A stretch of DNA of 22,605 nucleotides, taken from the IMG/VR virus record IMGVR_UViG_3300030329_003298, positions 1-22,605 of that record, one strand, 5' to 3'. Made by a program: the position numbers and the translations under genes. This document shows, in pieces, positions 4,220-7,367 of the stretch. The first letter of the stretch is position 1, and every line of letters begins with the position of its first letter. This DNA is from a virus. The notes below the pieces were generated by a model. The model was not told the DNA's origin. It saw only the letters and a program-made list of their open reading frames with translations, and ran no database searches.

Positions 4220-5137
4220 CTATTGTTCACAACGGTTTACGTCGCTGTTGATGCTGTGTTGATGCTTCAGGATTCGCTCACCTACAAATTCGGCGACCTG
4301 GGGGACGACGGCGTTACCGAGTCCTCTAAGTCGGTCCACCCGTCGGGGAACCCCATCAGCCACTCGACCCACGTCGGGTTCAACTGACCACCACTCTGCG
4401 GCGCTACGGCATGGTTCGATAGCTGCTCGCCGCCCCCCGTCCCCGTCCCACGCTCGCCGTTCTTCCAGCAGTTCGCGTCCGGCGTCGGGAACCGCGCCAC
4501 GGCCGTCGCCAGCGGGTACATCCCGTTCTCGGCCGCGACCACCTGCATCTGAAGATCCGACAGGCAAATCCCCATGCTGTGTCCCCTCGCGACGCTCTCC
4601 CGCTTGCGCCGCAGAAAATCCTCCGGCGTTCCGTTCGCGGGATTCGCTACCGGCGTGGCCCACAATGAAGATGCGGTCCCTGATGTGCGGCGCGCCAACG
4701 TGGGAAGCCGGTACGCAATGCCATTCCGCGTCATACCCGACCGCGGCCAACGTCCCGAGAACGGCATCCAGCCCCCGAACAAGCAAAGCTGAGACGTTTT
4801 CCAGAAGCACGTATCGCGGTCCCATGACGCGAACGACTCGAATGAGTTCGTAGAACAGACCTGATCGCTCCCCGTCGAGTCCCGCGCCCTTTCCGGCAAA
4901 GCTGATGTCCTGGCAGGGGAATCCACCACAGATGAGATCGACGGCCTCTGCGTCGTCGGTGGGCCAAGTTCGGATGTCATCGTGTCGCCTCACGTCGGGC
5001 CAGTGTTTCGCCAGCACCCGTCGGCACCAGGGGTCTATCTCCACCTGCCACTTGACCTGCATCCCGCAACGCTCGAGGCCCAAGTCCAGGCCCCCGATGC
5101 CCGCGAACAGACTGCCAACGGTTATAGGTGTATTCAT
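4220..5137 (-). CDS. C5 cytosine DNA methyltransferase
   Basis: A 305-residue enzyme that transfers a methyl group from S-adenosylmethionine to carbon 5 of cytosine in DNA. Motifs: SLFAGIGGLDLGLE (I, residues 9-22), GGFPCQDISFAGKGAGL (IV, residues 71-87, catalytic Cys75), ENVSALL (VI, Glu113), IRDRIFIVGHA (VIII, 152-162) and RLRGLGNAVVPQ (X, near the C-terminus). ATG 5137 is chosen because it opens directly on motif I and overlaps the previous stop as ATGA. The longer frame up to 5668 is out-of-gene. No restriction enzyme partner is evident, so it is likely an orphan methylase that protects phage DNA. The target-recognition stretch (about 163-250) is Gly/Arg-rich and low in complexity, and coincides with another conserved-looking frame (4282-4980). 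Confidence 0.92.
   Translation of the reverse strand: MNTPITVGSLFAGIGGLDLGLERCGMQVKWQVEIDPWCRRVLAKHWPDVRRHDDIRTWPTDDAEAVDLICGGFPCQDISFAGKGAGLDGERSGLFYELIRVVRVMGPRYVLLENVSALLVRGLDAVLGTLAAVGYDAEWHCVPASHVGAPHIRDRIFIVGHAGSESRERNAGGFSAAQAGERREGTQHGDLPVGSSDAGGRGRERDVPAGDGRGAVPDAGRELLEERRAWDGDGGRRAAIEPCRSAAEWWSVEPDVGRVADGVPRRVDRLRGLGNAVVPQVAEFVGERILKHQHSINSDVNRCEQ
4282..4980 (-). CDS. Overlapping +1-frame ORF resembling a conserved phage protein family
   Basis: An open frame of 232 residues wholly inside the methyltransferase gene, shifted by one base. Normally I would drop it as a shadow. However, its protein contains segments I recall from stand-alone phage proteins often labelled as methyltransferase-related: CFWKTSQLCLFGGW (58-71), GRWPRSGMTRNGIAYRLP (76-93), FPTPDANCWKNG (164-175) and GGQLNPTWVEWLMGFPDGW (197-215). 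The ATG at 4980 has a GAGG seven bases upstream (4988-4991). It could be expressed by internal initiation or by frameshift, or be an ancestral frame retained by chance. Function unknown. The family resemblance is from memory and needs a search. Confidence 0.4.
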   Translation of the reverse strand: MTSELGPPTTQRPSISSVVDSPARTSALPERARDSTGSDQVCSTNSFESFASWDRDTCFWKTSQLCLFGGWMPFSGRWPRSGMTRNGIAYRLPTLARRTSGTASSLWATPVANPANGTPEDFLRRKRESVARGHSMGICLSDLQMQVVAAENGMYPLATAVARFPTPDANCWKNGERGTGTGGGEQLSNHAVAPQSGGQLNPTWVEWLMGFPDGWTDLEDSVTPSSPRSPNL

Positions 5138-5481: not shown

Positions 5482-5867
5482 GGGTCCGGCCCGCCGCAGT
5501 AGGCGGGTGGTTGCCCCCGCCTGGGCTGGCTACGCGCCAGCCCAGGGGAACCAGGGGGGCTGTTATTCGCGTCAAATAGCACGGTCTGGACGCCCGTGGG
5601 AGCCTTGCGGTACATCCAGACGCGTCCTGGGAAGCACCGAGCCTCGACCTTGTGGGCGCCGAATTCATCCTTCCTCATGTCCCTGAGCCGCGCCGACACC
5701 GACGCCTCGGTGCCGCCGCAGGCGTGCTGTATCTCCTGCAGCGTGTGGTACCGTCCGTCCCCCATGAATTCCACGACGCGGTCGTAGAGGGACGACAGGT
5801 AGTCACCATCGCGTCGCTCGTCGTATGTCTGACCGGCGAACTTCTCGCCGTGATACTCGGTCGTCAT
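5478..5867 (-). CDS. Winged helix-turn-helix protein
   Basis: A 129-residue protein. Residues about 26-90 form a winged-helix unit: RVVEFMGDGRYHTLQEIQHACGG, then TEASVSARLRDMRKDEFG as recognition helix, then a wing HKVEARCFPGRVWMYRK. This type is common in phage early operons between replication and modification genes and is presumed to bind DNA. It is followed by GVQTVLFDANN, where QTVLF matches the general Q-x-x-L-F shape of sliding-clamp binding peptides, a hint and not proof. The last 26 residues are Pro/Gly-rich and are encoded by DNA that contains a perfect hairpin (5521-5545). The start overlaps the integrase stop (ATGA). Confidence 0.75.
   Translation of the reverse strand: MTTEYHGEKFAGQTYDERRDGDYLSSLYDRVVEFMGDGRYHTLQEIQHACGGTEASVSARLRDMRKDEFGAHKVEARCFPGRVWMYRKAPTGVQTVLFDANNSPPGSPGLARSQPRRGQPPAYCGGPDP
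5521..5545. repeat. Perfect 10-bp-stem hairpin inside the 3' end of the winged-helix gene
   Basis: Arms CTGGGCTGGC (5521-5530) and GCCAGCCCAG (5536-5545) are exact inverted copies around TACGC. It lies in the Pro/Gly-rich tail-coding part, followed on either strand by G- or C-runs and not T-runs, so it is not a standard terminator. It may slow translation or stabilise RNA, or be a REP-like element. Confidence 0.5.
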
Positions 5868-6973
5868 CCGATCACCTCCAGAATCTCGGTCGCCTGCTGC
5901 TCGTTGAGCTTTCGCTGTCGGATGTAGTGCTCGGTGGTGCCGGCGGCTGAGTGCCCAGCCACGCGCATCGCACCGGTCCGACCGAAGTCGGACTCGATCC
6001 GCTCAAGGGCGCTGTGCCGCAGTTGGTAGGGAGTCCAATGCGGAACGCCAGCCTCCGCACAGGCCCAGCTCACGCACGCACGCAGACGGGCGGGCGTCAT
6101 CGTCTGGGGGGTCGAGACGACGCCGGGACGACGCCAACCGGGGCTGAATACCAGACCACCCCCTCGGCACTGCGCCGCAGCCACTCGCGGCGCCAACCAC
6201 TGGCGAGCCTGTGGGCCGAACAGAATGGTCCGCTCCTGGTTGTGGTGGGACGTTTTGTGCTGTGGGGGTCCGTATCTCCACGTCGTGCCTGTAGCGTCCA
6301 AATCCTCAACGGTCATCCCGCAGAGTTCTGACGGTCGGGCCGCGGTGTGCCACAGCACCATCACCATCGCTCTCGGCACGTCGGGCATGACGTTGGCCGC
6401 CTTCTCCACGTCCTCGAACGGCACCGGCTCGACCGGAGGACGTTCCGCCGCCTGACTTCGGCCTCGCCTGATATTGCGCAGGCTCTGCCACGCCTGTGAA
6501 ACCCCCGGATTCATCAGGTCGTGCACGACGCACCAGCGTGCCCAGCGTCGAAGTCGGTTCGTGTAGGCGTTGATGCTCGAGCGACATAGGCCCCGCTGAA
6601 TCAGCGATTGTCTGTATGCCTCGAGGTGCACGGCTCTCAGGTCGTTGGGGTGCAATTTGCCGTAGAGCGCCACCAGGCTCGCCAGGGCCGACCGCAGCGT
6701 GCTAGCCTCGCCTGTGCGTGATCTATCCGCTCGCCTGTAGTAGTCGTCTGCGTGGGACAGATACCTGCCGACGGCGTCGGCGACGCGTCGGCAGGATGTC
6801 CCGCCCACGCCCTGATCCTCGACCCATCGCGTCCACGCCTCCATCACGTCGTCCCGGTCCTGGCTCACGACTGGTCCGAACGATTTGCTATGACGGCGCC
6901 CTGTGTCGTCGTACCACCACGTGCGCCAATATCCCCCCACGTCGCTGGGCTCAGTTGGTCGCGTCATCGACAT
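5864..6973 (-). CDS. int: Tyrosine recombinase (phage integrase)
   Basis: A 369-residue site-specific recombinase that would integrate and excise the phage genome. ATG 6973 is chosen because AGGAG lies just before it; the longer frame to 7162 would overlap the nuclease gene deeply. The N-terminal part includes a SAM-like core-binding domain (about 60-170: RRVADAVGRYL, DLRAVHLEAYRQSL, SSINAYTNRLRRWARW). The catalytic domain has Arg213 in HTAARPSEL, Lys240, Arg319 in YQLRHS, His341 in AGHSAAGTTEHY and the nucleophile Tyr350. The usual His of box II (HxxR) is Tyr316, a variant I associate with Planctomycetota integrases. The gene is embedded in a coupled early operon, so no attachment site can be adjacent to its end in the usual way. 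Confidence 0.92.
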   Translation of the reverse strand: MSMTRPTEPSDVGGYWRTWWYDDTGRRHSKSFGPVVSQDRDDVMEAWTRWVEDQGVGGTSCRRVADAVGRYLSHADDYYRRADRSRTGEASTLRSALASLVALYGKLHPNDLRAVHLEAYRQSLIQRGLCRSSINAYTNRLRRWARWCVVHDLMNPGVSQAWQSLRNIRRGRSQAAERPPVEPVPFEDVEKAANVMPDVPRAMVMVLWHTAARPSELCGMTVEDLDATGTTWRYGPPQHKTSHHNQERTILFGPQARQWLAPRVAAAQCRGGGLVFSPGWRRPGVVSTPQTMTPARLRACVSWACAEAGVPHWTPYQLRHSALERIESDFGRTGAMRVAGHSAAGTTEHYIRQRKLNEQQATEILEVIG

Positions 6974-7367
6974 CAAATCTCCTGATGATTTCCAGCCACG
7001 GCTCGCCGATCCGCGCCCGCGTGTCCTGGTGATCCACCACCTCGGTCGAAACCAGCACCCGCCGGATGTCGCTGATCGTCGCGGCGCTGCATATCGTCGC
7101 AGGCACACAGCGGAGCAACGCCCACCCCATCGCGGTCGCTGAGTTGTATTTCTCGATGTCACGCAGGAACCCGGTGGGTCGATTGTGTCGCCCGCCTCTC
7201 CAGATTCCCCCCTCGACCTCCAACGCGAGGCGCGATGCGGGCCAGGCGTAATCCAGCCGCCAGCGTCGCCTGGGGTGGAACCTGTACTCGGTGACAGGAT
7301 GCGGGATTCCCTCCTGGCGCCAGTGTTCCAGGATGACTGTGTCGTCCGGGGGTTTCCGAGCCCTCAT
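6951..7367 (-). CDS. PD-(D/E)XK-like (VSR/DUF559-type) nuclease
   Basis: A 138-residue protein. The core RWRLDYAWPASRLALEVEGGIW (about residues 35-56) gives the D ... E-x-E pattern of small PD-(D/E)XK nucleases. It is followed by GGRHNRPTGFLRDIEKYNSATAMGWALLRCVP (57-88), in which Arg/His and Lys-Tyr-Asn and the GW-x-LLR-x strand are typical of phage relatives. Such enzymes act as Holliday-junction, recombination or repair nucleases. The exact substrate cannot be told from sequence. The start overlaps the replication gene's stop (ATGA). The 3' end overlaps the integrase start by 23 bases. Its place between replication and integrase suggests a DNA recombination role. Confidence 0.75.
   Translation of the reverse strand: MRARKPPDDTVILEHWRQEGIPHPVTEYRFHPRRRWRLDYAWPASRLALEVEGGIWRGGRHNRPTGFLRDIEKYNSATAMGWALLRCVPATICSAATISDIRRVLVSTEVVDHQDTRARIGEPWLEIIRRFDVDDATN

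Follow-up and report, generated by a model that had tools for sequence, protein, structure and literature searches.

A phage C5-cytosine DNA methyltransferase gene with a probable small subunit nested in its +1 frame

The window, a single 22.6-kb virus record in which phage structural genes are present, carries a minus-strand gene from which two proteins appear to be made. Frame 0 (positions 4220–5137, minus; 305 aa) encodes the catalytic subunit of a C5-cytosine DNA methyltransferase with motifs I–VIII, an unstructured gap and motif X, and inside it lies an open +1 frame of 232 codons (4980–4282, minus). Comparison of relatives shows that both frames are protein-coding and under selection. 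The locus very probably encodes a C5-methyltransferase that is split by nature, with the coding region of the small subunit lying inside the gene of the catalytic one.

We propose that one C5-cytosine DNA methyltransferase is made as two polypeptides from the same DNA. Frame 0 would supply a catalytic subunit with the elements for AdoMet binding and catalysis (motifs I–VIII), a closing helix (motif X) and a flexible, passive linker. An internal start codon with its own ribosome-binding site would direct synthesis of the +1 small subunit, comprising a β region, a target-recognition region built of PTP modules, and motif IX. The two chains would then assemble into one sequence-specific methyltransferase, both being required for activity. 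Orphan phage methyltransferases in general protect phage DNA from host restriction, and by analogy the role of this enzyme may be to shield the DNA of its phage in the same way.

The locus and selection on its two frames

The frame-0 protein matches PF00145 at 3e-45 (residues 6–166) and phrog_363 at 1e-80. Motifs I–VIII occupy residues 1–165 (4643–5137, minus), with single-frame coding of the classic type over residues 1–90, and motif X, RLRGLGNAVVPQVAEFVGERIL, occupies residues 266–291 (4265–4342, minus). In the +1 frame, the proposed small subunit (4282–4980, minus) starts with an N-terminal β region, 'DxxTSSWRTSQ..FSETWPRSGMMRNGIAY' (4705–4845, minus; +1 residues 46–92), which lies over frame-0 motifs VI–VIII. 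Further along are the PTP-repeat target-recognition region (4396–4665, minus; +1 residues 106–195), with modules such as WATPVAN and FPTPDAN, and motif IX, LNPTWVEWLMGFPDGWT (4333–4383, minus; +1 residues 200–216), which is near-invariant among 118 sequences.

The initial annotation had pointed out this open frame, together with a GAGG seven bases ahead of its ATG; we locate the GAGG, which is Shine–Dalgarno-like, at 4988–4991 (minus), 7 nt 5′ of the ATG at 4980. It had also credited the methyltransferase frame with motifs I to X, which holds for I–VIII and X and fails for IX, the canonical copy of which is in the +1 frame. The segments it had singled out (WPRSGMTRNG, TPDANCWK and NPTWVEWLMGFP-GWTD) cover the majority of the columns that scarcely vary in the +1 family. 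The identity of the +1 protein, absent from that annotation, is supplied by a match of the window's protein to phrog_1008, 'DNA methyltransferase' (5e-32 over residues 17–221), a profile matched by all 118 family members; searches of Pfam and NCBIfam with the +1 protein gave no match.

Stop codons are depleted from the +1 frame over a defined part of the gene. Synonymous codon shuffles of the window gene give a mean of 3.9 stops in the +1 frame, compared with 0 observed (P = 0.003). Among 121 non-redundant relatives the depletion has a sharp onset and a sharp end, with 233 stops observed and 221 expected over frame-0 residues 1–55, 55 and 132 over residues 56–92, 0 and about 356 over residues 93–250, 3 and 68 over residues 251–270, and finally 78 and 28, a 2.8-fold enrichment, over residues 271–280; stops in the +2 frame are close to expectation. 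The search for frequent stops in close homologues, proposed with the initial annotation, hence returned none over residues 93–250. These expectations, as well as the z-scores given below, use a synonymous-shuffle null that ignores residual ancestry, with the +2 frame and the flanks as controls.

The same pattern extends well beyond these relatives. With the +1 protein as query, tblastn detected matches in 151 phage records and in at least 594 viral contigs, and 372 bacterial genome stretches also carry the arrangement, bearing out the earlier suggestion of a whole dual-coded phage family. All 80 viral loci fetched via the +1 protein have their match within a methyltransferase gene and in the identical +1 register. 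A second set of 80 loci was fetched with the methyltransferase protein alone, which removes ascertainment by the +1 protein, and the +1 match is again present in 80 of 80; this set has 0.93 +1 stops per gene versus 4.5 expected from synonymous shuffles, and 10.1 +2 stops versus 9.7 expected. A bacterial set (GTDB, 80 loci) has no +1 stops over residues 98–160, where 100 are expected. The valid negative control is a set of C5-methyltransferases related to that of phage IME-CF2, in which +1 stops are at expectation; an open +1 frame is therefore not general to C5-methyltransferase genes. Plasmid methyltransferases were dropped as negative controls, most having proved open in +1 themselves.

The frame that leads changes along the gene. 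Differences at the three positions of frame-0 codons (p1/p2/p3), counted over 99 sequence pairs, are 0.137/0.102/0.428 in the N-terminal part (residues 1–90), 0.162/0.071/0.234 over motifs VI–VIII, 0.453/0.325/0.390 in the recognition region, where frame-0 position 1 is the most variable, 0.260/0.137/0.180 in motif IX, and 0.235/0.175/0.426 in motif X and the tail. Position 1 of a frame-0 codon serves the +1 frame as its wobble position, so these values mean that the +1 frame takes over the lead from frame 0 in the recognition region and motif IX and that frame 0 regains it at motif X; the same relay appears in entropies calculated on the +1 alignment. Frame 0 dominates motifs I–VIII and X, and +1 dominates the target-recognition region and motif IX. 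Reduced synonymous change, a further check suggested at the outset, is seen in third-position differences, which fall from 0.43 to 0.23 over motifs VI–VIII and 0.18 in motif IX.

Measured against a null that keeps each frame-0 protein and its codon usage, conservation of the +1 frame is near the null over residues 1–55 and far above it from about residue 98 to 275. Across +1 residues 46–92, where they face frame-0 motifs VI–VIII and both frames are under constraint, z is 45–73. The peak, with z of 125, falls over the segment containing LNPTWVEWLMGFPDGW and motif IX; at LNPTWVEWLMGFPDGW the mean BLOSUM score is 5.43 in the +1 frame versus 3.90 in frame 0, so that the +1 frame is the better conserved. 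Conservation in the +2 frame is likewise raised at LNPTWVEWLMGFPDGW, because a frozen third position acts on all frames.

Translation of the nested frame

Between the last upstream +1 stop and residue 98, an ATG or GTG is present in 120 of the 121 genes (92 expected), and 58 genes have a +1 ATG with a Shine–Dalgarno-like site, compared with 14.8 expected. Start positions are not conserved and differ among lineages; where the last +1 stop lies near residues 85–87, the next start is mostly an ATG at 88 or a GTG at 89. For the window, the ATG at 4980 is most likely the +1 start, and other starts are possible. From the enrichment of start codons and Shine–Dalgarno-like sites we infer internal initiation in preference to frameshifting.

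In place of internal initiation, or in addition to it, ribosomes could pass from frame 0 into +1 by a programmed frameshift, which would join motifs I–VIII to the recognition region and motif IX. Such a fused product would make a sensible enzyme, and in ShiLan gp70 and Ailee gp4 the parts do follow one another in this order within a single chain. We nonetheless regard frameshifting as unlikely, since the +1 constraint begins at about residue 98, some 60 codons ahead of the end of motif VIII, where a late shift would need none; since a search for a slippery motif found no invariant one at this onset; and since motif X stays in frame 0 in most family members. Of the two possibilities raised initially, a hidden second gene stands, and a C terminus reached by frameshift is the less supported, given this early constraint and the enriched starts.

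Homology of the +1 protein and division of the motifs

The +1 consensus reads DxxTSSWRTSQxCLxEGWxxFSETWPRSGMMRNGIAYxLPPL..., followed by a varying number of WPTPTAxD modules and then by GGxLNPTWVEWLMGFPxGWTDL, which we take, by the M.HhaI motif, to be motif IX of C5-methyltransferases. Profile comparisons identify the +1 protein as a homologue of the C-terminal half of single-chain methyltransferases. In hhalign the +1 profile aligns to the recognition region and motif IX of single-chain enzymes (probability 97, E of 1.8e-10), and the frame-0 profile, compared with single-chain C termini, matches motif X only. Mycobacteriophage ShiLan gp70, encoded in a single frame, matches both phrog_363 (residues 1–385) and phrog_1008 (residues 196–388). 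Its in-frame C-terminal half, a member of the same family, is a homologue outside the overlap of the sort the initial annotation had proposed to look for, and together with the stops and the synonymous constraint it supports true overprinting.

The elements that follow motif VIII are distributed differently among relatives. ShiLan gp70 and Gordonia phage Ailee gp4 have the PTP modules and motifs IX and X together in frame 0, as one chain. Streptomyces phage Darolandstone (gp38) encodes the PTP modules in +1 and motifs IX–X in frame 0. The window and the majority of its relatives encode motif IX, along with the PTP modules, in +1, and motif X in frame 0. In Catdawg, RemusLoopin, DrYang and JetBlade, the +1 frame holds all three and frame 0 ends after motif VIII. 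Neither motif IX nor motif X is found in both frames in any of 176 classified loci, a tally that excludes 45 loci without a match to a simple motif-VIII pattern, and 148 of the 176 have the window's division, in which the large chain has I–VIII and X and the small chain has IX. As far as the sequences tell, motifs IX and X are each located in one frame only. The parts are conserved and their frame is not, as predicted for one enzyme of two chains. Even in ShiLan and Ailee, where frame 0 encodes all the parts, +1 remains open across motifs VI–VIII, so the N-terminal β region may have a further role.

Two observations on individual relatives may be added. Magnar gp43 is another relative with a different split of PTP modules, motif IX and motif X between the frames. 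In Ailee (L251, 497–895), a LAGLIDADG endonuclease gene is annotated within the methylase gene, and the methylase record is joined from two pieces.

Structure prediction with AlphaFold2 from the frame-0 alignment yields a methyltransferase fold over residues 1–170, with pLDDT above 90 in most blocks (lower, about 75, in blocks 71–90), and also predicts the motif X helix with confidence, at a pLDDT of about 90 for residues 281–305. The best PDB matches of this model in Foldseek are M.HhaI (1.5e-15) and M.HaeIII. Residues 177–264 have pLDDT below 50, where the +1 frame takes over, and by AlphaFold2 and hhalign the frame-0 chain is without a structured target-recognition domain or motif IX. The frame-0 target-recognition region had been described as low in complexity; it is so, and it is also unconserved, as judged from the relatives' alignment and AlphaFold2. 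The model indicates that this stretch of frame 0 is an unstructured, passive translation. The +1 protein alone reaches a mean pLDDT of 62, with 82–88 over residues 51–80, and such modest values might be expected of a subunit that folds on its partner. Foldseek matches of the +1 model were sequence-driven or due to chance, and glycolipid transfer protein, which gave the sole PDB matches of the +1 profile in sequence searches, was judged a chance match.

The +1 protein could instead have a separate function, for example as a regulator or an anti-restriction protein, and merely overlap the methyltransferase, and the absence of any counterpart of its N-terminal β region in ordinary methyltransferases fits this, as does the lack of a clear fold from AlphaFold2 and PDB searches. 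Single-chain enzymes, however, contain homologues of its C-terminal part, namely their recognition region and motif IX, and exactly these two elements are missing from frame 0, which makes a separate function quite improbable and leaves the split methyltransferase as the preferred reading.

A second dual-coded subfamily comprises C5-methyltransferases of Firmicutes phages resembling that of Streptococcus phage Javan83, with a mean GC content of 42% (46 non-redundant genes, from L265 877–2133 and L270–L349). These genes have 0 +1 stops versus 269 expected over residues 61–180, and approximately the expected number elsewhere. Their +1 protein corresponds to phrog_16143, which weakly matches the N-terminal part of phrog_1008, and ends in SLSDILEEEVDERYFLS, a segment that the single-frame IME-CF2 enzyme has in frame 0. 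Dual coding in a subfamily of 42% GC rules out high GC as its origin and points to an ancient overlap. That the +1 frame looks conserved only through a conserved, GC-rich frame 0 has next to no chance of being right: frame 0 does largely dictate some +1 residues (MTxNG under GYDAEW is one example), but the idea is refuted by the null with frame-0 protein and codon usage kept, which predicts hundreds of stops and far lower +1 conservation, by the +2 frame, which fits the stop null, by the same effect at 42% GC, and by the +1 wobble position being the most variable in the recognition region.

Known split methyltransferases and breadth of the arrangement

A C5-methyltransferase split into two polypeptides is of a kind already known. 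The small gene of M.EcoHK31I reportedly lies within the large one, in a different frame (Lee, Kam and Shaw 1995, NAR 23:103). M.AquI and M.EcoHK31I are both C5-methyltransferases of two polypeptides (PMC3404938), and in M.EcoHK31I, termed naturally split (PMC3439449), motifs I–VIII and X are in the large chain and IX in the small (PMC3404938). Inactive methyltransferase fragments complement each other, and an artificial split between motif VIII and the recognition domain reassembles best (PMC3404938).

The window's division of motifs is that of M.EcoHK31I (YGGCCR, α/β, E. coli), to which it is likened by motif layout. The literature, however, places the target-recognition domain of M.EcoHK31I in the large chain, whereas that of the window is selected in the nested frame; moreover, the window's gene belongs to a phage, and no restriction enzyme was identified next to it. 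M.AquI (CYCGRG, α/β) also has two chains, split between motifs VIII and IX, but its small chain has IX, X and part of the recognition region, whereas motif X of the window is in the large chain. Catdawg gp6/gp5 and RemusLoopin gp34/gp35 are nearer to M.AquI's division than the window is; like Diva, they share the window's +1 family (PHROG 1008) and relative frame, and they differ in having motif X in +1 as well and a frame 0 that terminates after motif VIII. The pairs of Catdawg, RemusLoopin and Diva were annotated one by one, the internal ORF of Paenibacillus phage Diva g49 being already annotated as 'g49 internal gene'. A hidden out-of-frame HNH gene has been described within the phage DNA methylase ShiLan gp65 (PMC11855218). 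It resembles the window's in being concealed out of frame in a phage methylase, but is a mobile insertion in a different methylase, whereas the overlap in the window is part of the enzyme itself.

Several other loci were observed in passing. Bacillus subtilis YdiO/YdiP (M.BsuMI) is a candidate for comparison, from annotation alone. A Salmonella phage (MW790496; L263, 700–1434) and an Acinetobacter baumannii plasmid (L255, 898–1623) carry methyltransferases, each about 245 aa long, whose genes share the nested +1 frame, with motif IX at its end; such enterobacterial-phage and plasmid enzymes are of interest for comparison with M.EcoHK31I. Synechocystis plasmid pSYLC (L257, 805–1647) has a very diverged methyltransferase with no clear motif X in frame 0, and its open +1 frame reads FPTPTA...LIQGYPSNWF. 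In the window itself, a 432-aa ORF upstream of the methyltransferase (5864–7162, minus) is tyrosine recombinase-like (R..H..HYI, by eye), which suggests a temperate phage.

By sequence comparison, the arrangement is unexpectedly widespread, occurring in hundreds of phages and bacteria; a literature search found no account of this breadth, of a recognition region in the nested frame or of parts migrating between frames. To our knowledge, few examples of dual coding in double-stranded DNA phages have comparative support as clear or as broad, and the overlap here spans a functional domain, not a disordered tail. Several records annotate just one protein of such a locus or label the second hypothetical, and methyltransferases annotated as complete may be inactive if cloned from frame 0 alone. 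The locus also opens the question of which frame sets the sequence specificity of the enzyme.

We lean towards the broader view that dual coding is widespread in a large branch of the C5-methyltransferases of phages and bacteria, in which the hidden +1 subunit would hold the recognition region, and the PTP array, motif IX and motif X would shift between frames by indels, with at least two subfamilies, the window's and the AT-richer one of Firmicutes, keeping the overlap. A change in the hidden frame could then alter specificity while leaving the catalytic chain nearly intact.
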